Below are positions 51,493 to 63,943 of a stretch of DNA of 64,000 bases, piece by piece; positions within the stretch are counted from its first letter, which is position 1, and each line of letters begins with the position of its first letter. A program made the position numbers and the translations under genes. The notes under the pieces were generated by a model. That model was not told where the DNA came from and searched no databases. It worked only from the letters and a program-made list of their open reading frames with translations. Origin of the DNA: Parabacteroides faecis. Its GTDB lineage: Bacteria > Bacteroidota > Bacteroidia > Bacteroidales > Tannerellaceae. The stretch is taken from NCBI RefSeq assembly GCF_014647375.1, contig NZ_BMPB01000001.1:124001-188000 (forward strand). Reading direction: 5' to 3'.

Positions 51493-51787
51493 CAGTTGAC
51501 AATTGACAAGTGACAGTGGACAGTTAGGCTTCGCGATTATACATAGAAAGATTTGAGTCAATGTGGCAATATGTCCATGTGCCAATTTAGGAAGATATGA
51601 GCTATATATCCAGTTTGTATTAAGGAACGCAGATGACGCAGACGAGCGCAGATAAACGCAGATAATATATTTGTTTTAAAGAAAATAAAAAGTCTGCGAG
51701 CATCTGCGTATTCTGCGTCCCCTAATGCGATCTGAATAGACTCACATCTGATAATAACTGTCAACTGTCACTTGTCAACTGTCAACT
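51493..51787. repeat. GTTGACA/TGTCAAC element, copy 3, split by inserted repeats
   Basis: Left arm 51493-51525 (CAGTTGACAATTGACAAGTG core) and right arm 51756-51787 (AACTGTCAACTGTCACTTG core) are reverse complements, as in the other copies, but lie 230 bases apart, with two other repeat types between them. Confidence 0.7.
51623..51723. repeat. CGCAGAT/ATCTGCG inverted repeat
   Basis: GGAACGCAGATGACGCAGAC and two further CGCAGAT units (51623-51663) face TCTGCGAGCATCTGCGTATT and CTGCGTCC (51693-51723). The arms form an imperfect hairpin of about 30 bp around an AT-rich loop. Confidence 0.7.
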
Positions 51788-53238: not shown

Positions 53239-56200
53239 TTATTTTACGATAGCTTTAACTGTTGTTTCTCCTTCAACAGCTACTACAACTACACCTGCAG
53301 GAGCTTTGATAACAGCGTCATCAGAAGTGATAACAGTATTAGCAATTGTCTGACCCAGCAGATTGTTGATAGCTACTCTCTTACCTGCTGCACCAACAAT
53401 TGTGATCTGACCTTCGCCAGCAACAACCTTCACAGCAGAAGCATTGATTTCATCGTTAGCTGTAATAGTACCTTCTTTGCCAACTTCGATTTCAATTTCA
53501 CCTACATTATCACCAACGAACTGAGAAGTAGGAATGAATTCTTGTGCTAACAAAGTTTTACCATCAGCAAACAGACAAGGATGATAAGCAGTAACTGTTA
53601 CATCATATAAGCTATTCGGCTTCATGTTCTTAACATTTACAGTTAAGTATTTGCCATCCTTCGTATAGTTAGCTTCGTTACCAGCATGAATTTTTACAGA
53701 TTCTGCACCATCAACCAAGTTGAACTCTACGTTTTCAGGACCTTCCCACCAATAAGAAGCATTACCGTTGCCATCAACTAAAGAAGTATTGATAGTTTCC
53801 CAGTCAGTGATGTTGAATTCACCCTGGTTTTCAGGCATACCATTATAAGCCTTACGAGCTAAGTGAGCACCAGCTTCACCGAATGTGAAGACGTCAATCT
53901 GATTTTCACCTTCCATCAGATATACATTATAACGATACTGATCGCTAATTGTGATGTTTACAAGGTTACCTGCGTTTTCATCTGTACCCTTCTTATCGCG
54001 GAATTCACTGATGATCACAGCACTGTTTGTCCAACCGCCTTGCAGATTGAATGTATTGATAGTTGTATTCTTGAAGTGACCATAATATACTTCTTCGTCA
54101 CCAGCTTTATCTGTACGAACTACTTTCAGATAATAGTTAACAATCATTTTAGGATTGATTACTTTACCTGTACCGTTGAACAACTCTACAGACAAAATAT
54201 CGTTATTTTGGTTAGAACCTTTACTCTTAGCCAATACTTCAGACATGAAGACATTCTTAGATGTATTCTTCGGAGCCAAGTGACCTACCTGTACTACATA
54301 ATAGTCAGCACCCGGAATACCTTCCCATTTCAAGACAGCTGTTGCACCGTCGATATCACCGTGTACCATCGGTTGCAATACAGGAAGTTCATCTCCAACA
54401 GTCGGTTCTCCAGCAATTGCCAAATCATTCGTTAAGCAGTTAGCCTCTACGATCAATACATTTTCTTTTGCACATGCTGTAGCAGCGGTCGGAGCATACT
54501 TAACAGTAGCAGTAGTAGTGAAAGAACCGTTCACATCAACCTTCACATTTGCCGGAGCTGTCAAAGTAAATGGGTTATCATAATTTACTGTACCCAAAGA
54601 AACCTTAATAGCTTCTGTTGCAGTCAGCGGGTTGAATTCTTTACCTTCAATAACTACATTCACATTAGCTTCTTCATCTACATTAGCAGTAATGTCTCCC
54701 GCAGGAGTGATTGTAATTTCCGGTTTGTAAATGAAACCATATACTCCACCTTCGTTTACATAGTGCATATAATTAAACTGTTCTAACGGATTCAACTCAC
54801 CGTCTGTCCAAGTCATTACATTTTCGTTAGACTTAACAGTGAACAAATCTTCAGCTCTATGCATAGCTCCGTTTTTAGTAGCCTGGTTGAATGTTACAAC
54901 CACTAAACCTAACACTTCACCATATTGGTTCGGAGTCAGTTTATCAACGGCTGCACCATCATTCAACATATCCTTGATTACATAAGTAAATGCATTCGGA
55001 TATGCGCTTACATTCGCTTTACGAGTTACATTAACTACTTTTTCCAAGTTGTAACCAGCTACGTAGAATGAGTCTACTGCCAATGGGTTTACGTAATCAC
55101 ATTCATCCTGATATACTTTACCAAAGTATTTCTGGAATTCAGGATATACTAAGTTCGGTAAATTTGTACCAAATGAAGGACGATAAGAGTTGTGCATTTC
55201 TTCAATGAGACTCAAGTTATTGATATTACTCCACAAATTAGCACGAGTATCACCATATAAACCTGCTACTACACCAACACCACATAACGGGCAATTGCTT
55301 TCAGACTCAACACCTACAGCCCAAACTTGTAATTCATATGTATCAGGATTCCATTCCTTAACATTTGCTTTTTCAGGATCTAGGAAACCATCCTTATTCG
55401 GAACGAACTGTACATAAATAGGAAGACCTTCTTCACGGAACTGTTTCATCTTAGCATCGTCCAATGTATTGATGCTGATTTCCAATGTATCCGTATTGTT
55501 GTTTACCCAAGCAGCATCTTCACTCAATTTGAAGCGGAATTCCTGGTTATCTGTAGCATTCTCATTATTTCCACTAAGATTCAGATTCTGCAAAGTTATA
55601 CGAACTTTAGCGATACCGTCATTTCCTGTAGGTTTCAATTCGCTACCATGCAACACCAATTTCTTAACACGTGAAGCATAACGAGAGTTATCCAATGCAT
55701 CTTTCTTATTATAAGGAGCAAAGAATACATTGTCGGCAGTATAACGACCTACTGTACCGTCAAAGTTTTCGCCTTCATAAGTCAGCCACAATGCGCCAAC
55801 TCTAGCAGCAGCCAATGTCCAGCCGAATTTTCCATAAGCATCAAAACCTAACGGTTTGTAGTCTGCATTCACTGCGATTTTCCATGCTTCTTCACGAGTG
55901 ATGTCGTTAGTCCATTCTCTCAACGCTAAAGTCAATTTAGAACCTTCTTCTATTACACCACATGAAGAATATTTAATACCGTCAGTTATTTTCACTTTAC
56001 CATATGAAGTCCACTGATCAGAAGTCATCTTTTCATATGCCAAGAAATCCATCGGATATGTTTTCTGATCAGGAATATTCTTACCCACAACTTCTACTTC
56101 TTGTGTCTGGCAATTTTCATTGAAAAAGATATGATCTTTAGCGAAAGCTAATTCAGGAACAGAGTTTGCAGAAATTAATCCTGTTTCAGCAGACAAACGG

Positions 56201-57339
56201 ATAGGATTCAATACATCTGTTTCTGGTAACTTAGCAGCATATTTTCCAGAGAAAGTAGCGATTGATTTCGGTTGGAAATCATATGTTACTTTATCTTCCA
56301 ACTTAGCGCCATCTGATTCTTTTTCAAATTCAGCACGAACAACATCGTTGTTATTTGTTACGTTTGTCCATACAAAAGCATTTTCAGCAGTTGTTTTAGC
56401 AGGTAATTTAACATTTTCTGCGCTCAACGCCAAAGTACCATTTGTACAGCTAATTAAGCCTAAACCAGCTTCGAAAGATGTTACATCAGCAGTCAAAGCC
56501 AAAGTCGGTTCGTCGAAATTCATCTGGAAACCACTAACAACCAATGCCGGAGCAAAATGGCTCTTAGAAGCAGTCTCTTCTACATCCTTAATTTCAACAA
56601 AATCAGACCACAAGGTCACCTGGATCAACTTGTTATCCAAAGAACCTTCAATAAACATCCTTGCATCAGTAATCGGATCAGTTACAACATCGAACAAATT
56701 GATTACTTTATCTTCTACATCAGCAGCTCCTGTTTTAAAGATTGCACCGTCAGATTTAAATTCAGCATCAGCAGAAGCAGAACCATTTTTCAATATTTCA
56801 CTTCTCTTTACTGGATTACCTTCCAAATCAAATACAGCAACTTTAATATGCCAATCTGCAGAAGAAGTTGCAGCCAAACCGAAGTTCTCAGCACTTAACT
56901 TAACTTTCAGTTCACGTACATTTGTCATATACTTAGTTGACAAATCGAACATCAACTCACCACTCTGACTGTCACCCAAGAAGATTCCTAAAGAGTCAGT
57001 ACCACTTTGCCATACCGTAGTAGTGGTATAATTGTTTGTCGGCTTTTCGGTAATATTAGGATAATATACATCATCTACGTCCTTATTAAAAGCACGGAAA
57101 TAAACACCATTACCCCAAACTTTCTTTCCATCTACAGTTTTTAAAGCCTTACCAGGGAAACCCGGTAGAACGTCATTGCCTTCGGCTTCATACAAAATAG
57201 GTTTTTGAGCAGCAGTCAAACCCGCATATTCGGTGGCAGCCCATGCAGGAGCATTTTCTACCTGTCCAAATACCGATGCTGTGCCCAAAACTAACATAGC
57301 ACTAATAGTTAGCACTTTTGTTTTAGTAAAGTTTCGCAT
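53239..57339 (-). CDS. Large secreted surface protein with DUF6383-like C-terminus, S-layer-like
   Basis: 1366-residue exported protein (signal peptide MRNFTKTKVLTISAMLVLGTASVFGQ). The body is acidic and beta-rich with no enzyme motif. The last 75 residues (IVGAAGKRVAINNLLGQTIA, then APAGVVVVAVEGETTVKAIVK) match the DUF6383-like C-terminal module of Bacteroidales surface proteins, related in layout to type IX secretion sorting domains. Possible O-glycosylation sites of the D-S/T-hydrophobic type include DSL and DTL. The length, composition and invertible promoter upstream resemble the phase-variable S-layer glycoproteins of P. distasonis; that identity is inferred. It is a single-gene unit. 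Confidence 0.87.
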   Translation of the reverse strand: MRNFTKTKVLTISAMLVLGTASVFGQVENAPAWAATEYAGLTAAQKPILYEAEGNDVLPGFPGKALKTVDGKKVWGNGVYFRAFNKDVDDVYYPNITEKPTNNYTTTTVWQSGTDSLGIFLGDSQSGELMFDLSTKYMTNVRELKVKLSAENFGLAATSSADWHIKVAVFDLEGNPVKRSEILKNGSASADAEFKSDGAIFKTGAADVEDKVINLFDVVTDPITDARMFIEGSLDNKLIQVTLWSDFVEIKDVEETASKSHFAPALVVSGFQMNFDEPTLALTADVTSFEAGLGLISCTNGTLALSAENVKLPAKTTAENAFVWTNVTNNNDVVRAEFEKESDGAKLEDKVTYDFQPKSIATFSGKYAAKLPETDVLNPIRLSAETGLISANSVPELAFAKDHIFFNENCQTQEVEVVGKNIPDQKTYPMDFLAYEKMTSDQWTSYGKVKITDGIKYSSCGVIEEGSKLTLALREWTNDITREEAWKIAVNADYKPLGFDAYGKFGWTLAAARVGALWLTYEGENFDGTVGRYTADNVFFAPYNKKDALDNSRYASRVKKLVLHGSELKPTGNDGIAKVRITLQNLNLSGNNENATDNQEFRFKLSEDAAWVNNNTDTLEISINTLDDAKMKQFREEGLPIYVQFVPNKDGFLDPEKANVKEWNPDTYELQVWAVGVESESNCPLCGVGVVAGLYGDTRANLWSNINNLSLIEEMHNSYRPSFGTNLPNLVYPEFQKYFGKVYQDECDYVNPLAVDSFYVAGYNLEKVVNVTRKANVSAYPNAFTYVIKDMLNDGAAVDKLTPNQYGEVLGLVVVTFNQATKNGAMHRAEDLFTVKSNENVMTWTDGELNPLEQFNYMHYVNEGGVYGFIYKPEITITPAGDITANVDEEANVNVVIEGKEFNPLTATEAIKVSLGTVNYDNPFTLTAPANVKVDVNGSFTTTATVKYAPTAATACAKENVLIVEANCLTNDLAIAGEPTVGDELPVLQPMVHGDIDGATAVLKWEGIPGADYYVVQVGHLAPKNTSKNVFMSEVLAKSKGSNQNNDILSVELFNGTGKVINPKMIVNYYLKVVRTDKAGDEEVYYGHFKNTTINTFNLQGGWTNSAVIISEFRDKKGTDENAGNLVNITISDQYRYNVYLMEGENQIDVFTFGEAGAHLARKAYNGMPENQGEFNITDWETINTSLVDGNGNASYWWEGPENVEFNLVDGAESVKIHAGNEANYTKDGKYLTVNVKNMKPNSLYDVTVTAYHPCLFADGKTLLAQEFIPTSQFVGDNVGEIEIEVGKEGTITANDEINASAVKVVAGEGQITIVGAAGKRVAINNLLGQTIANTVITSDDAVIKAPAGVVVVAVEGETTVKAIVK

Positions 57340-57398
57340 ACGAATTCTTTTTTAATTAATACTTTATTTATATGTCTCAAATTTGATTGATTCTATAA

Positions 57399-57430
57399 TA
57401 ATGACTAGAGAAAACGTTCCTTTTTTCTCG
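57399..57430 (+). repeat. Left inverted repeat of invertible promoter segment
   Basis: A 32-base repeat (TAATGACTA at the outer end, CTCG at the inner end) whose reverse complement occurs at 57578-57609 with 2 mismatches. The inner part AAACGTTCCT agrees at 9 of 10 positions with the ARACGTWCGT core I recall for Mpi-type promoter inversion sites in Bacteroides fragilis. It lies 60 bases upstream of the surface-protein start. Confidence 0.85.
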
Positions 57431-57448
57431 TCATTTTTTAGGTAGTAT

Positions 57449-57479
57449 TTTGCCTTGGTAATAAGAAGTACTATTTTTG
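57449..57479 (+). promoter_or_regulatory. Promoter 1 inside the invertible segment
   Basis: TTTG (57449-57452), a 19-base spacer and TATTTTTG (57472-57479) match both boxes of the Bacteroidetes housekeeping promoter. It points right, away from the surface-protein gene. Confidence 0.7.
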
Positions 57480-57542
57480 TACTCTAATTGCTATTCAATT
57501 GATAAGAAAGAGGATAGGATTGAAAAAAAATTATGAGAAAGA

Positions 57543-57573
57543 ATTGTAGGTTTAAAACTTATATCTAACTTTG
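57543..57573 (+). promoter_or_regulatory. Promoter 2 inside the invertible segment
   Basis: ATTG (57543-57546), a 19-base spacer and TAACTTTG (57566-57573), ending 4 bases before the right inverted repeat. It also points right. Confidence 0.7.
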
Positions 57574-57577
57574 CTGG

Positions 57578-57609
57578 CGAGAAAAAAGGAACGTTTTTTT
57601 TAGTCATTA
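57578..57609 (-). repeat. Right inverted repeat of invertible promoter segment
   Basis: The reverse complement of the left repeat at 57399-57430 over 32 bases with 2 mismatches, both G to A in the run before CGTTCC. The outer end reads TAGTCATTA on the plus strand. Confidence 0.85.
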
Positions 57610-58470
57610 CAATAACCATTCTAGCCTTATATTTCAAAGCGTATATAAATTATCACCCTCGCAAATATTTAACTCGATGCTTATTCGTCTAAAATGGATG
57701 CCTACCCGCCAAAACCCCGATCCCTACTCATTTTCAGGCCGATTAGCACTCGTTGGGTAAAAGGTGTTTTTTGAAAAGCGATTGTTAACTATCGTTAATC
57801 GCATCAAAAACGACTCATCCGATCTCCGAATCACTCGATATTCTCTGGGGATAACCACAACACCCCCGATATTTGTGTCGATTGCTTTCCTCAGAGAGTT
57901 TTTATAATCATCGTTTCAGGCTTCATCCCTTTTAAACATTTGATATTTAATAAGTAACACTGAAAGGTCAGCAAATGGTACACCCGCCTGAAAAAGCAGC
58001 CCCAGCACCTTCGAAAGAATAAACATCCGTTATTTGTTCACTGCCTACTTGTTCGGAAAAACATAGGCATCAGCACGAAGAAATATGTACGCTTATTTGT
58101 CGGACTAAAGGTCTGAGTTTATTTCTTTTTTACTGGAGCCTTCAGACCAAATCCATTGAAAATAAAAGTGTGATAGAGAACTGAAAGCTGAAGGGTGATT
58201 GTAAAAAAGTTCCTGTAGGTGGTAAAAACGATAGGTGTGACCGATAGTACTATAGTGTTATCCCGTCAGCACTACTGTGCTACCATTGCTTAGACTACTA
58301 TGCTATATCAAGGGAGACTATAGGGCTATCTGGAATTATATCTCATGCAAAAAACAGATATTTATCCACACTGATTAAACCTTTTTTTATCTCTCTTGTC
58401 TATATCTCGGTTGAGTTGTGTATATTTACATGCCTATTGATAAGTTTTTAAAGTAGATACCATTGAAAAT
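57610..58470. other. Long intergenic region upstream of the RND efflux operon
   Basis: About 860 bases without a convincing gene. It includes a bulged hairpin GCGATT...AATCGC at 57778-57802, an imperfect GGTCTGA/TCAGACC pair at 58110-58148, and a degenerate repeat array at 58246-58329. The efflux promoter is not clear; TATATTTA at about 58423 is the nearest -7-like sequence. Confidence 0.55.
58246..58329. repeat. Four degenerate 22-24-base tandem repeats
   Basis: Units begin at 58246, 58268, 58292 and 58315 and share a core like AGACTACTATGCTAT (others: AGTACTATAGTGTTAT, AGCACTACTGTGCTAC, AGACTATAGGGCTAT). Several cores are partly palindromic (ACTATAGT). The array lies 140 bases before the efflux adaptor gene. 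Confidence 0.6.
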
Positions 58471-59568
58471 ATGACGAAGAGAGTGAAGTGGGGCGTTACC
58501 GCCGCAATTTTTCTGATGATTGCAGGAATGATTGCTTATCCACAGATTAAGAACCAGTTGACAGCATCCGGCAAGGATTCCAATGTGGCTCCCGCACCGG
58601 GAACAAGCGTACGTAAGCAGGTGCTGAACATCAACGCCGAAGTGTTGAAATTCCAATCGCTGACCGATAAAGTAATCAGTACAGGCAGTATCATTCCCGA
58701 CGAAGAAGTAGACTTATCCTTCGAATCGTCCGGAAAAGTGGTGAATATCTATTTCACCGAGGGAACACATGTAAAAGCCGGTGACCTGCTGGCCAAGATC
58801 AATGATAAACCCTTACAAGCCCAGCTCAGGAAACTGGAAGCCCAGATCCCTCTGGCAAAAGACCGGGTATACCGCCAGCGCACTTTGCTGGAGAAAGATG
58901 CGGTCAGCCAGGAAGCCTATGAACAGGTGACTACCGAATACGAAAAGCTGATGGCCGATATCGACCTGGTGAAAGCCAATATCCTGCAAACCGAACTGCG
59001 TGCCCCTTTCGACGGCATCATCGGCCTGCGTTCAGTCAGTGAAGGTGCTTACGTGTCTCCTACCACCGTCATTACCAAGCTGACCAAAATATCTCCGTTG
59101 AAAATCGAGTTCTCCATCCCTGAAAGATATGCGAATGATGTGAGTAACGGGACAATGATCGTCTTCCGCCTAGAAGACTCGAACGGTATCATGCGCAACT
59201 ATAATGCAAAAGTATATGCGGTCGAGAGTAAAATGGACATGACCACCCGTACCCTGAAAGTACGCGCTACCTATCCGAACACGAACGAAGCGATTTTCCC
59301 CGGACGTTACACATCCGTCGAGATCACCAAACGCGAGATCAAAGACGCATTGGCTATCCCGAGCGAAGCGTTGATCCCGGAAATGGGAAAGAATGTCGTT
59401 TACCTCTACAAGAACGGGGTAGCCGACCCGGCAGAGATCGAGATCGGTTTGCGTACCGAAAGCCACGTACAGGTGCTCAAAGGTATACAACCCGGCGACA
59501 CACTGATAACTTCCGGTGTGATGCAGCTCCGTACCGGCATGAATGTAACTATTGATAATCTGTATTAA
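58471..59568 (+). CDS. RND efflux periplasmic adaptor (MFP family)
   Basis: Membrane-fusion protein linking the inner-membrane pump to the outer-membrane channel. It has an N-terminal hydrophobic anchor (WGVTAAIFLMIAGMIAYP) and no lipobox, then a lipoyl-like domain (GKVVNIYFTEGTHVKAGDLLAKIND), a helical hairpin (QLRKLEAQIPLAKDRVYRQR), the second lipoyl half (LRAPFDGIIGLRSVSEGAYV) and beta-barrel domains. Its 365 residues are typical. It is the first gene of a three-gene operon, 8 bases before the pump gene. The substrate is unknown. Confidence 0.95.
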   Translation: MTKRVKWGVTAAIFLMIAGMIAYPQIKNQLTASGKDSNVAPAPGTSVRKQVLNINAEVLKFQSLTDKVISTGSIIPDEEVDLSFESSGKVVNIYFTEGTHVKAGDLLAKINDKPLQAQLRKLEAQIPLAKDRVYRQRTLLEKDAVSQEAYEQVTTEYEKLMADIDLVKANILQTELRAPFDGIIGLRSVSEGAYVSPTTVITKLTKISPLKIEFSIPERYANDVSNGTMIVFRLEDSNGIMRNYNAKVYAVESKMDMTTRTLKVRATYPNTNEAIFPGRYTSVEITKREIKDALAIPSEALIPEMGKNVVYLYKNGVADPAEIEIGLRTESHVQVLKGIQPGDTLITSGVMQLRTGMNVTIDNLY

Positions 59569-59576
59569 ACTCCCCT

Positions 59577-62500
59577 ATGGCAAATATATCGGAAACCAGT
59601 ATAAACAGGCCGGTTCTTTCGACGGTAATGATGCTTATCATCCTGCTGTTCGGTATGATCGGCTACAAGTTCCTGGGGGTTCGCGAGTTCCCCAGTGTGG
59701 ACCAGCCTATTATTTCGGTAAACGTGTCCTATCCGGGAGCGAATGCCGAAGTTATCATGAACCAGATCACGGAACCGCTGGAACAAAACATCAACGGTAT
59801 CCCGGGTATCCGTTCACTAAGTAGTGTCAGTAGCCAGGGTAGCAGCCGTATCACCGTAGAGTTCGAACTGTCGGTGGATATGGAAACGGCAGCCAATGAC
59901 GTGCGCGACAAGGTTTCGCGCGCCCAACGGTATCTGCCGCGCGACTGTGACCCGCCTACCGTAGCAAAAGCGGATGCCGATGCTACCCCTATCATGCAAA
60001 TCGGTGTACAAAGTAACCGGCGCTCGTTGATGGAGTTGAGTGAAATAGCTGAACTAACCGTAAAAGAACGCTTACAGACGATCTCGAATGTGAGCGGTGT
60101 AGATATATGGGGACAAAAACGTTACTCCATGCGCTTGTGGCTCGACCCGATCAAGATGGCAGGTTATGGTGTTACCCCTTTGGATGTAAAAAACGCAGTA
60201 GATGCGGAAAACGTGGAATTACCCTCCGGTAGCATCGAAGGAAATACGATCGACCTGTCTATCCGTACCCTGGGCCTGATGCATACAGCGAAAGAGTTCG
60301 ATGACCTGATCGTTAAGGAAGATGCCAATAATATCGTCCGCTTCAAAGATGTCGGACGCGCAGAACTGGCACCGGAAGACTTGCGCAGTATCCTGCGTAA
60401 AAACGGAGAACCGATGGTAATCTGTGTAATCGTGCCCCAGCCGGGTGCCAATCATATCGAGATTGCCGACGAGGCTTACAACCGTATCGAACAGTTGAAA
60501 AAGGACTTACCGGAAGATGTATCGATCGAAATGATCTATGATAATACCCGTTTCATCCGCGCATCCATTGCCGAAGTGGAAGAAACGATCTATGTGGCAT
60601 TGGCACTCGTGGTATTGATCATCTTCCTGTTCCTGCGCGACTGGCGCGTTACGCTGGTTCCTTGCGTGGTTATCCCCGTATCGCTGGTCGGTGCCTTCTT
60701 TGTCATGTATATCTCCGGTTTTTCCATCAACGTATTGACCATGCTGGCAGTCGTACTCTCGGTAGGACTGGTGGTGGACGACGCAATCGTGGTGGCAGAA
60801 AACATCTATGTCCGTATCGAACAAGGCATGAATCCGAAAGAGGCAGGTATAGAAGGTTCGAAAGAAATTTTCTTTGCAGTAATCTCAACGACCGTGACGT
60901 TGGTTTCGGTATTCCTCCCAATCGTATTTATGGAAGGGATGACCGGACGTTTGTTCAAGGAGTTCAGTATCGTGATCGCCGGCTCCGTGACGATTTCTTC
61001 ATTTGTTGCCCTAACCTTTACCCCGATGCTCGCTACTAAGTTACTTCGCAGGCGGGAAAAGAAGAACTGGTTGTATGTAAAAACCGAGCCTTTCTTCGAA
61101 GGGTTGAACAATATTTATGCCTGGTCGCTCAACTATTTCCTGAGCCATAAATGGTGGGCTATCCCTATCGTGATCATTATGTTCGGTTCGATCGGCTATT
61201 TCTGGAACACGATCCGTTCTGAACTTTCACCGCTGGAAGACCGCTCTTCCATCTCCATCAATATGCGTGCCCAGGAAGGGGCCACTTTCGAGTTTATCCG
61301 CGATTATTCCGACCGGATTGCAGAACTTGCCGACTCCATTGCGCCGGAGCGTAAGTTCCTGACAAACCGTGCATCCAGTAGTAATGCCAATATCAGCGTG
61401 ATCCTTCCGGATATCAAAGAGCGCGAGCGTTCACAGATGGAAATAGCAGAAAAACTCTCGGCTGCCGTACGAAAAGAAACGCAGGCACGTGCCTTTGTCC
61501 AGCAACAGTCTACTTTCGGCGGACGACGCGGAGGTATGCCTGTGCAATATGTGCTACAGGCGCCCAGCCTGGAAAAGCTGGCGGAACACCTGCCTGAATT
61601 CATGCAAAAAGTAAATGAAAGCCCTGTCTTTCAGATGGCGGATGTGAACCTGAAATTCACCAAGCCGGAAACACGCATCGAGATCGACCGCGACAAGGCT
61701 TCCTCCCTGGGAGTCAGTACGCGTAATATCGCCCAGACATTACAATATGCATTGAGTGGACAGCGTATGGGGTATTTTTATATGAATGGCAAACAATATC
61801 AGATATTGGGCGAGATCAACCGCCAGCAACGTAACACACCGCTCGATCTGAAGTCGATCTATGTGCGAAGTGACAACGGCTCAATGATCCAGCTGGATAA
61901 CCTCGTCACCCTGCTTGAGGACGTGGCACCGCCCCAGTTATACCGCTACAACCGTTTTGTTTCGGCAACGGTATCCAGTGGTCTGAACAAAGGATATACG
62001 ATCGGCGACGGCCTGGACGAAATGGACCGTATCGCGGCTGAGACACTGGACGGAAGTTTCCGCACAGCTCTTTCCGGCGAATCGAAAGAGTTCCGCGAAA
62101 GTTCTTCCAGCCTGATGTTCGCCATGATCCTCGCCTTGTTAATGATCTACCTGGTACTTGCCGCCCAGTTCGAGAGTTTCAAAGACCCGTTTGTGGTGAT
62201 GTTCACCGTACCGCTTGCCATTGCCGGAGCTTTGATATTTATGAGCTACTCGGGTATTACAATGAATATATTCAGTCAGATCGGTATTATCATGCTGATC
62301 GGTCTCGTGGCGAAGAACGGTATCCTGATCGTGGAGTTCGCCAACCAGCGCCAGGAAGCGGGATTGAGTATGGCGGAAGCAATCCGTTCGGCTTCTACAC
62401 AGCGTCTGCGCCCGATCCTGATGACCAGTGTATCCACCATTCTCGGATTGGTTCCGCTGGTATATGCAAGCGGTGAAGGTGCACAGGGACGTATTGCGAT

Positions 62501-62606
62501 GGGTATTGCCGTAGTAGGCGGTATGTTGGTTTCAACATTCCTTACCCTGTTTATCGTTCCGGCCATGTATAGTTTTATTTCAACAGACAGAGCAAAAAAG
62601 ATATGA
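59577..62606 (+). CDS. RND efflux pump (AcrB/MexF-like, HAE1 family)
   Basis: Inner-membrane proton-driven multidrug pump of 1009 residues. The start matches the family (ISETSINRPVLSTVMMLIILL), the porter domain contains SYPGANAEVIMNQITEPLEQ, and the proton-relay Asp401-Asp402 pair lies in VGLVVDDAIVVAENI. The second half shows GLVAKNGILIVEFANQ with the conserved Lys, as in AcrB. Twelve transmembrane helices are expected in the usual 1+5+1+5 layout. It overlaps the channel gene by 4 bases. Confidence 0.97.
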   Translation: MANISETSINRPVLSTVMMLIILLFGMIGYKFLGVREFPSVDQPIISVNVSYPGANAEVIMNQITEPLEQNINGIPGIRSLSSVSSQGSSRITVEFELSVDMETAANDVRDKVSRAQRYLPRDCDPPTVAKADADATPIMQIGVQSNRRSLMELSEIAELTVKERLQTISNVSGVDIWGQKRYSMRLWLDPIKMAGYGVTPLDVKNAVDAENVELPSGSIEGNTIDLSIRTLGLMHTAKEFDDLIVKEDANNIVRFKDVGRAELAPEDLRSILRKNGEPMVICVIVPQPGANHIEIADEAYNRIEQLKKDLPEDVSIEMIYDNTRFIRASIAEVEETIYVALALVVLIIFLFLRDWRVTLVPCVVIPVSLVGAFFVMYISGFSINVLTMLAVVLSVGLVVDDAIVVAENIYVRIEQGMNPKEAGIEGSKEIFFAVISTTVTLVSVFLPIVFMEGMTGRLFKEFSIVIAGSVTISSFVALTFTPMLATKLLRRREKKNWLYVKTEPFFEGLNNIYAWSLNYFLSHKWWAIPIVIIMFGSIGYFWNTIRSELSPLEDRSSISINMRAQEGATFEFIRDYSDRIAELADSIAPERKFLTNRASSSNANISVILPDIKERERSQMEIAEKLSAAVRKETQARAFVQQQSTFGGRRGGMPVQYVLQAPSLEKLAEHLPEFMQKVNESPVFQMADVNLKFTKPETRIEIDRDKASSLGVSTRNIAQTLQYALSGQRMGYFYMNGKQYQILGEINRQQRNTPLDLKSIYVRSDNGSMIQLDNLVTLLEDVAPPQLYRYNRFVSATVSSGLNKGYTIGDGLDEMDRIAAETLDGSFRTALSGESKEFRESSSSLMFAMILALLMIYLVLAAQFESFKDPFVVMFTVPLAIAGALIFMSYSGITMNIFSQIGIIMLIGLVAKNGILIVEFANQRQEAGLSMAEAIRSASTQRLRPILMTSVSTILGLVPLVYASGEGAQGRIAMGIAVVGGMLVSTFLTLFIVPAMYSFISTDRAKKI

Positions 62607-63943
62607 AAAAGGTCTTATTAATGATACTGGCTGTTTCTGCTACCCTGAGTGTCAAGGCACAGGAAGTATACAGCCTGAAACAATGCATCGAAACCGGATT
62701 GGAACGGAACTATTCCATCCGTATCATACGTAACGAGCAACTGATCAGTAACAATAACGCGACACTGGGTAATGCCGGTTATCTGCCGACGGTAGATATG
62801 AGCGGCGGATTCAGCGGCTCGGTCAACAACAACCGTAACAAATTAGCCGACGGTACAACCGAGAAGCAAAACGGTGTCAAAAACGAGACGGGCGACATCG
62901 GACTGAACGTGAACTGGACCGTGTTCGACGGCTTCGGCATCCAGGCAGAATATGCACGTCTTAAAGAATTGAAGCGGATGGGTGAGCTGGATACGCGCCT
63001 GACGATTGAAGATTTTGTCGCAACGCTTTCAGGCGAATATTACAACCTGATCCGCCAGCATATCCGATTGCGCAACCTGCGTTCTTCTCTCGACCTCTCC
63101 CGTGAGCGTGTACGTATTGCGGAAGAGCGTTACCACATCGGTTCCGGATCACGTATGGACCTGCAACAGGCACAGGTCGACTTCAATGCCGACAGTTCAA
63201 ATGTCCTGAACCAGCTGGAAGTAGTTCATACTTCCCGTATCCGGCTGAACGAACTCATGGCGCTTGATAATATAGACGAACAGATCGCCTTGAAAGATTC
63301 AGTAATACGTCCGAACATCTTTCTGGACGAAATAGATCTCTGGCAAAGTACCCTGGCATCGAACGCCTCTCTGTTGATCGCCCAAAAAAACCAGTCACTC
63401 TCCGAACTGGATTACAAAAAGGTGAAAAGCCGTGACTACCCGTATGTAAAACTAAATGCCGGTTACGGCTACACCGCTAACTGGTATGAAGTCGGAACAA
63501 CCGACCTGCAGCAACGTCTGGGGCTAAACTACGGACTGACAGTCGGCCTGAATCTGTTCGACGGTCTGAACCGCCGACGTGAACGCCGCAACGCCCGTAT
63601 CCAGATCGAAAACAGCCAGTTGAAGAAACAGGAACTCGAACTGGGCCTGCGTGCCGACATGAGCAACCTGTGGATGGCTTACCAAAACAACCTGGGCCTG
63701 TGGAACCTGGAAAAAGCCAATGTCGTCGTTGCCCTGGAAAATCACCGTATCGCGATCGACCGCTATAAACTGGGAGAATTATCCGGTATCGAACTGCGTG
63801 AAGCCCAGATAAGCTTGCTGGAAGCAGAAGAAAGGCAATCCATCGCAGAATACTCCACCAAGCTATGCGAGATATCTCTCCTGCAACTAAGCGGCCAGAT
63901 ACTGACCTATGTGGCGCCGGAGCCGGAGAAAGCCAGTTTTTAA
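62603..63943 (+). CDS. TolC-like outer-membrane efflux channel
   Basis: Outer-membrane factor of the tripartite pump, 446 residues. Signal peptide MKKVLLMILAVSATLSVKA, then two OEP repeats with long helical hairpins: SLKQCIETGLERNYSIRIIRNEQ, LDLSRERVRIAEERYHIGSGSRMDLQQAQVDF, and the second ENHRIAIDRYKLGELSGIELREAQISLLEAE. There is no lipobox Cys. It overlaps the pump gene by 4 bases (ATGA), so translation is coupled. Confidence 0.95.
   Translation: MKKVLLMILAVSATLSVKAQEVYSLKQCIETGLERNYSIRIIRNEQLISNNNATLGNAGYLPTVDMSGGFSGSVNNNRNKLADGTTEKQNGVKNETGDIGLNVNWTVFDGFGIQAEYARLKELKRMGELDTRLTIEDFVATLSGEYYNLIRQHIRLRNLRSSLDLSRERVRIAEERYHIGSGSRMDLQQAQVDFNADSSNVLNQLEVVHTSRIRLNELMALDNIDEQIALKDSVIRPNIFLDEIDLWQSTLASNASLLIAQKNQSLSELDYKKVKSRDYPYVKLNAGYGYTANWYEVGTTDLQQRLGLNYGLTVGLNLFDGLNRRRERRNARIQIENSQLKKQELELGLRADMSNLWMAYQNNLGLWNLEKANVVVALENHRIAIDRYKLGELSGIELREAQISLLEAEERQSIAEYSTKLCEISLLQLSGQILTYVAPEPEKASF

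Follow-up and report, generated by a model that had tools for sequence, protein, structure and literature searches.

A probable Mpi-type invertible promoter, captured in the OFF orientation, upstream of a DUF6383 surface-protein gene of Parabacteroides faecis

The window analyzed here is a stretch of 64,000 nucleotides of Parabacteroides faecis DNA. Upstream of a gene for a large DUF6383 protein, it carries an element that we judge, with a probability of about 0.9, to be an Mpi-type invertible promoter cassette, that is, a phase-variation switch captured OFF whose inversion in this copy is predicted. The architecture of such a switch had been claimed by a sequence-only reading of the same DNA, and is now supported by an Mpi equivalog in the genome, by arm dinucleotides that match in 78 of 78 elements, and by inversion between orthologous loci of two species. 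The kind of switch is already known; the analysis adds to it a family of such elements, a rule for the crossover, a candidate enzyme, the ON orientation as found in relatives, and a hint of cassette exchange. Mpi-type phase variation is thereby extended to the DUF6383 family, matches to which were found in all 39 genomes of the genus searched (1 to 38 per genome), the elements before DUF6383 genes having been examined in part of the 39. The analysis also yields testable rules, namely the two bases that must match, the ON orientation, and the candidate enzyme.

We infer the inversion of the window copy, the identity of the enzyme, and the transcription that follows. The enzyme would be a serine invertase, for which the Mpi equivalog encoded at G000:C13:214216-214815 is the likeliest candidate. 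It would pair two inverted 32-bp sites, cut both at their central TT, and rejoin them so that ~173 bp become inverted. In the assembled orientation, the promoter at 57544-57573 reads away from the 1366-aa DUF6383 gene, which would be OFF. Once the segment is inverted, the -7 box would come to lie at 57435-57442 on the minus strand and face the gene, which this form would transcribe with a leader of ~90 nt (ON).

The sequence-only reading had described two 32-base inverted repeats with 2 mismatches and 147 bases between them, and both the coordinates and the match were reproduced exactly. The arms, at 57399-57430 and 57578-57609, are complementary at 30 of 32 positions and enclose a spacer of 147 nt; when the 64-kb window was randomized 12 times under a first-order Markov model and searched with gaps of 50-300 nt, the top arm pair reached 21-25 of 32. 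The gene-proximal 32-bp recombination site lies at 57402-57433 on the plus strand and has the form TGACTAGAGAAAACG-TT-CCTTTTTTCTCGTCA, with the crossover dinucleotide at 57417-57418, and the gene-distal site lies in inverted orientation, on the minus strand, at 57575-57606, with its dinucleotide at 57590-57591. From the site centers, the segment predicted to invert spans 57418-57590, or ~173 bp; the corresponding segment is inverted between orthologous loci of relatives. The inner repeat had also been said to fit the Mpi site consensus at 9 of 10 positions; AAACGTTCCT does match ARACGTTCGT at 9 of 10 in both window arms, and exact AAACGTTCGT is present in relatives, for example at L169 and L218. 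An Rfam search of 56500-58600 returned 0 matches. The window holds another 30/32 inverted repeat, at 51494-51525 and 51756-51787, which was set aside as composed of short TGACAGTTGACA-like repeats; this pair is located upstream of two chromate-transporter genes.

The target gene (53239-57339, minus strand) encodes 1366 aa, with a signal-like N-terminus noted by eye and a C-terminal DUF6383 (PF19910) that is the sole Pfam match of the open reading frame. Its ATG is found 60 nt to the left of 57399, exactly where a surface-protein gene had been claimed to start. DUF6383 is termed a putative T9SS targeting domain in an excerpt of PMC9722745, and the target protein would be located at the cell surface.

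The repeat belongs to a larger set. A 20-base repeat query allowing ≤3 mismatches found 21 places in the genome, 14 of which form 7 pairs 169 bp apart, and the reversed-pattern control found 3 places. We then scanned with the site consensus the own-genome stretches of the 15 DUF6383 genes besides that of the window (16 in total), together with four other places. This gave 14 elements in the own genome (G000), 11 before DUF6383 genes and 3 elsewhere. Since 11 of the 16 DUF6383 genes are thus preceded by such an element, a population would be a mix of cells with different surface proteins. The three elements without a DUF6383 gene are L097 (C18:23.7 kb), L095 (C5:163.6 kb), and L096 (C15:210 kb); judged by eye from open reading frames, one lies 5' of a lipoprotein-like and a TonB-receptor-like gene, one precedes an apparent gene remnant, and one is close to a probable potassium-transport operon.

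Stretches from ten other genomes contributed 64 further elements, for a total of 78 in 11 genomes, which is a sample and no census. The DUF6383 genes whose upstream stretches were sampled were taken from among the matches listed: 10 of 14 in G012, 9 of 13 in G015, 6 of 9 in G014, 15 of 21 in G021, 4 of 11 in G026, 24 of 38 in G009 (20 short stretches plus 4 genes in others), and 18 of 31 in G038 (12 short stretches plus 6 in others). For G013 and G022 only exact-pattern places were taken, and for G006 one locus; the upstream stretches of 4 DUF6383 genes of G004 fall outside the sample. By threshold, L154, L159, and L166 stand outside the 78, each with a promoter directed away from the gene, and L187 (22/32, without a promoter) was left uncounted. 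Of the 39 genomes of the genus, counting that of the window, 5 hold exact copies of the arm pair.

A Bacteroidales promoter is present within the segment. Two plus-strand promoters with N19 spacing had been claimed there, and both exist; the reading of both as functional promoters fared less well. The sequence TTTG-N19-TATTTTTG at 57449-57479 (plus strand) has counterparts of its type in 2 of 78 elements, counting that of the window, and was rejected as not conserved and probably due to chance. The second, TTG-N19-TAACTTTG at 57544-57573 (plus strand), is directed away from the surface-protein gene and has ATTG, not TTTG, as its -33 box. At its place, TTG-N19-TAnnTTTG is found in 70 of 78 elements, with N20 or N21 in 2 more and no such promoter in 6. 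The family promoter is therefore likely to be the one at 57544-57573 alone. A search for TAnnTTTG on the minus strand within the segment found none, in line with the earlier claim that this strand has no -7 box there. Located 5' of the -33 box is a conserved GATAAGAAAG block (57501-57510, plus strand), taken from the consensus of 36 elements of 205 nt, which is a possible candidate activator site.

In its present orientation, the promoter faces an efflux operon (HlyD-type MFP, AcrB-type RND, and OEP; 58471-63943, plus strand) that begins ~0.9 kb away, raising the question of whether the promoter serves this operon now, with the switch governing drug efflux instead of, or besides, the surface protein. 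Both plus-strand promoters are directed toward 58471, the sole terminator-like hairpin in 57000-58600 (58100-58116) is at chance level (1 found, 1.1 expected), and invertible promoters before resistance genes are described for the same order in an excerpt of PMC8748976. We nonetheless consider an efflux switch very unlikely: 11 of the 14 own-genome elements stand before a DUF6383 gene, the far-side neighbor in G006 is a different gene, and transcription of the operon would need an untranslated lead of ~0.9 kb. The efflux operon is probably not the target of the promoter.

The assignment to the serine invertases comes from the center of the sites. The central dinucleotide (site positions 16 and 17) was equal in both arms of all 78 elements, TT/TT in the window, even though seven kinds occur (38 TT, 19 AT, 12 TA, 3 GT, 3 AA, 2 AC, and 1 TC). 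Agreement with other elements of the same genome was 41% over 864 ordered comparisons, and 10,000 within-genome permutations of the partners averaged 40.5 matches of 78 and never exceeded 57. Elsewhere in the site the arms of an element do differ, in 48, 53, and 44 of 78 elements at positions 7, 8, and 9, and in 14, 10, 1, and 4 at positions 13, 14, 18, and 19. At positions 15 and 20-22 the arms are always alike, but these positions are invariant across elements too. The two central bases alone are variable between elements yet always matched within an element. Position 19 agrees at 0.95 within elements versus 0.56 between elements of the same genome, with four exceptions, and the matching core is therefore slightly wider than two bases in most elements. 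Serine invertases require a matching 2-bp overlap, and an arm-matched dinucleotide that differs between elements is, as far as sequence can tell, the mark of a 2-bp serine-invertase crossover. A tyrosine recombinase was considered as the enzyme and rejected because the arms differ at positions 14 and 19 in 10 and 4 of 78 elements, and an overlap of 6-8 bp needs identity at both (at 13-20 for 8 bp).

The orientation of each element was called from the direction of its promoter and marker, giving 73 OFF, 4 ON, and 1 unclear among the 78. The ON elements are L164 (G015), L204 (G014), L218 (G021), and L229 (G006). In the own genome, 13 of 13 callable elements are OFF, 11 of them before DUF6383 genes, the states of L095 and L097 having been called from 59-codon open reading frames and four of the 13 calls from the marker alone. 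The ON state is thus rare in assemblies (73 of 77 callable elements OFF). Such uniformity is what a fixed regulatory element would also show, its repeats being ordinary operator sites and its orientation frozen. That reading we hold to be extremely improbable, as the orientation is reversed in four elements, of which one has colinear flanks, as the arm dinucleotides match in 78 of 78 elements though they differ between elements, and as paralogs without the arms have the promoter reversed.

The case with colinear flanks is one locus in two species, L164 of G015 and L154 of G012. The flanks align at 76% and 83% identity, and the segment aligns inverted, 539-744 to 743-539, at 86%. A second instance is the sole ortholog found for the window gene, in G006 (57% identity), where the element is reversed, that is, ON. 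The G006 inner segment is 65% identical when reversed and 48% in the direct orientation, with shuffled controls averaging 47% and reaching 53%. This is a similarity at the level of the family, as the inner segments of elements from four genomes have a median identity of 0.67 to one another. The ortholog search, at E 1e-100, matched 2 of 39 genomes, that of the window included, with 15 first-look candidates scored per genome; candidates beyond these 15 existed in 12 genomes, again including that of the window, and further orthologs may be missed.

The ON direction was set from repeat-less paralogs, in which the promoter faces the gene. At L160, L165, L186, L196, L206, L214, and L226, the promoter and GATAAGAAA are directed at the gene, with an additional promoter-like match in the opposite direction at L206. 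By eye, the same arrangement is present at L082 of the own genome, and L084 shows the marker together with a -7-like box. A repeat-less paralog with a gene-facing promoter was found in eight sampled genomes (G000, G012, G015, G009, G038, G014, G021, and G026), which suggests one default gene per genome. The claim that the window copy is OFF is supported, in that the conserved promoter points away from the gene and these paralogs show the opposite direction to be ON. Taken together, the strong OFF bias and the gene-facing repeat-less paralog suggest one default surface protein and many rarely expressed alternatives.

The sequence-only reading had named the absence of an Mpi-like recombinase from the genome as evidence that would count against it. 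Four serine recombinases, three of them small and the fourth large, were found in the own genome, together with 23 phage-integrase (tyrosine recombinase) matches, 22 of them above cut-off. One of the small serine recombinases, at G000:C13:214216-214815, matches NF009949 ('master DNA invertase Mpi family') with 323 bits against a cut-off of 272, and is therefore an Mpi equivalog, so that this ground for refutation falls away. Orthologs of at least 49% identity were found in 34 of the 39 genomes, including that of the window, two of the 34 (G028 and G030) having broken matches only. The four genomes G025, G029, G031, and G032, in which no orthologs of any of the three enzymes were found, have one DUF6383 match each, at completeness values of 97, 99, 84, and 75%, two of the four thus below 90%; the other 35 genomes have 3 to 38 DUF6383 matches.

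The other two small enzymes (C2:147145-147741 and C7:327450-328085) are Mpi-like paralogs that score 188 and 185 bits, below the 272 cut-off, and a real switch might be flipped by one of these instead. Besides the own genome, three others with this exact arm sequence have both paralogs, namely G009, G013, and G038. In addition, elements are present in G022 along with the first paralog (68%) and a portion of the second (82%, residues 74-210), yet the search of that genome for a close and intact Mpi ortholog found only two fragments of 44-45% on one contig of an assembly of 490 contigs. On the other hand, elements of the same type are present in G021, G026, and G006, where the Mpi-type enzyme was the sole one of the three found, although all three assemblies are incomplete (90, 81, and 88%). 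Furthermore, directly 5' of the Mpi gene, four genomes (G000, G009, G013, and G038) carry an imperfect palindromic version of the site that has 9 mismatches (L001:1987-2018), and no further place reaching 9 mismatches was found among the 27 recombinase loci of the own genome (184,980 positions, both strands). We consider it unlikely that a paralog is the enzyme, and retain the Mpi equivalog as the candidate. The palindromic copy may be an operator through which Mpi controls itself. As a separate observation, G022:C427:3151-3979 carries an Mpi-like gene as two halves on opposite strands, which is either an intragenic inversion or an assembly error.

Comparison of the cassettes with one another revealed that the interior of the window segment is 96% identical to that of L083 (C5:31.4 kb) and 95% identical to that of L088 (C1:205.6 kb), and that over the element the identity is 94-95%. 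The flanks of the window element compared with those of L083 and L088 are 0.53 and 0.57 identical on the distal side and 0.57 and 0.54 on the proximal side, with background medians in the own genome of 0.55 and 0.58. BLAST (E 1e-3) of 800 nt per side of the window element against L083 and L088 detected homology over the element alone. Among 382 same-genome pairs in four genomes, 13 have an inner identity of at least 0.88, and three of these have distal flanks at background level, namely the window with L083, the window with L088, and L131 with L132 in G013. The last pair has inner, distal, and proximal identities of 0.89, 0.51, and 0.65, and ~85 nt in common on the gene side. In each of the remaining ten, one or both flanks exceed background, as expected from ordinary duplication. 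Among the pairs compared, one from G013 gave a gene-side flank identity of 0.02.

These values raise the possibility, which we put forward tentatively and with some doubt, that cassettes are mobile, the invertase, or conversion at its sites, also trading complete cassettes between far-apart surface-protein genes with a central dinucleotide in common. For the window cassette, exchange by the invertase is the simplest explanation, but conversion or copying by way of the sites would leave the same picture, and the breakpoint is resolved no finer than the site. If cassettes move, the bacterium would rewire which promoter drives which protein, beyond the direction of that promoter. The term cassette exchange was absent among the literature matches listed.

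Several known systems resemble the one proposed here. Serine invertases of the Hin/Gin type act on inverted partial-dyad sites with a 2-bp crossover core, and the present elements likewise have such sites and such a core. Unlike in Hin/Gin switches, no recombinase gene lies in or beside the window segment, and one enzyme would serve many loci in trans.

The Mpi-controlled invertible promoters of Bacteroides fragilis were reportedly described by Coyne et al. in 2003. In excerpts of the papers concerned, Mpi is stated to invert 13 regions in B. fragilis, of which seven are capsule promoters (PMC4747536), its repeats are given as ARACGTTCGTN (PMC8375218), and the system is also treated in a paper that mentions P. 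distasonis (PMC5903667). The likenesses are one serine invertase for scattered promoter cassettes, inverted repeats based on ARACGTTCGT, and a Bacteroidales -33/-7 promoter within the segment. The present system differs in that most linked genes encode DUF6383 proteins rather than lying in capsule loci, in that each site is a 32-bp partial dyad and several central dinucleotides occur, and in that many sites, those of the window included, have CCT for CGT.

In Parabacteroides distasonis, DgpA and its relatives are phase-variable surface (S-layer) glycoproteins that Fletcher et al. are said to have reported in 2007. Excerpts of PMC8400631, PMC2943079, and PMC8068183 cite phase-variable S-layer glycoproteins of P. 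distasonis alongside promoter DNA inversion, and a table in PMC2943079 lists DgpA and DgpC. Among the matches listed, the papers naming DgpA concern other subjects by title. As described in these excerpts, Dgp proteins resemble the present ones in forming a family of large secreted proteins, in phase variation described with promoter inversion, and probably in the genus. In the window protein, the O-glycosylation motif given in an excerpt of PMC8068183, D(S/T)(A/L/V/I/M/T), shows no enrichment, with 2 found versus 4.2 expected. Phase-variable S-layer loci are also described for B. thetaiotaomicron in excerpts of PMC12548429 and PMC12118408, and these too have invertible promoters before S-layer genes in a gut member of the Bacteroidales. 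The B. thetaiotaomicron loci differ in the repeat, CCGTTACCTABVRAGTAAC, and in adjoining site-specific integrases, as given in the excerpt of PMC12118408.

A second, repeat-less class of DUF6383 genes was observed to carry a conserved 5' leader RNA of ~375 nt below the promoter. It is represented by L210:334-713 (plus strand) and by L172, L175, L203, L213, L215, L216, L219, L220, L222, and L223. The predicted fold has a z of -8.45 (L210). Both-side changes occur in 25 of 114 pairs across 11 sequences, a value reached by 0 of 500 shuffles, the structure having been derived from the same alignment, and for pair types the corresponding figure is 6 of 500 shuffles. Searches of 4 loci against Rfam gave no match. 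Inspection by eye suggests that a GC-rich hairpin followed by a U run could provide an alternative, attenuator-like pairing outside the predicted fold. With ≤2 mismatches, the core of the leader is present in 15 of 39 genomes, and the predicted structure is possibly that of a new regulatory RNA.
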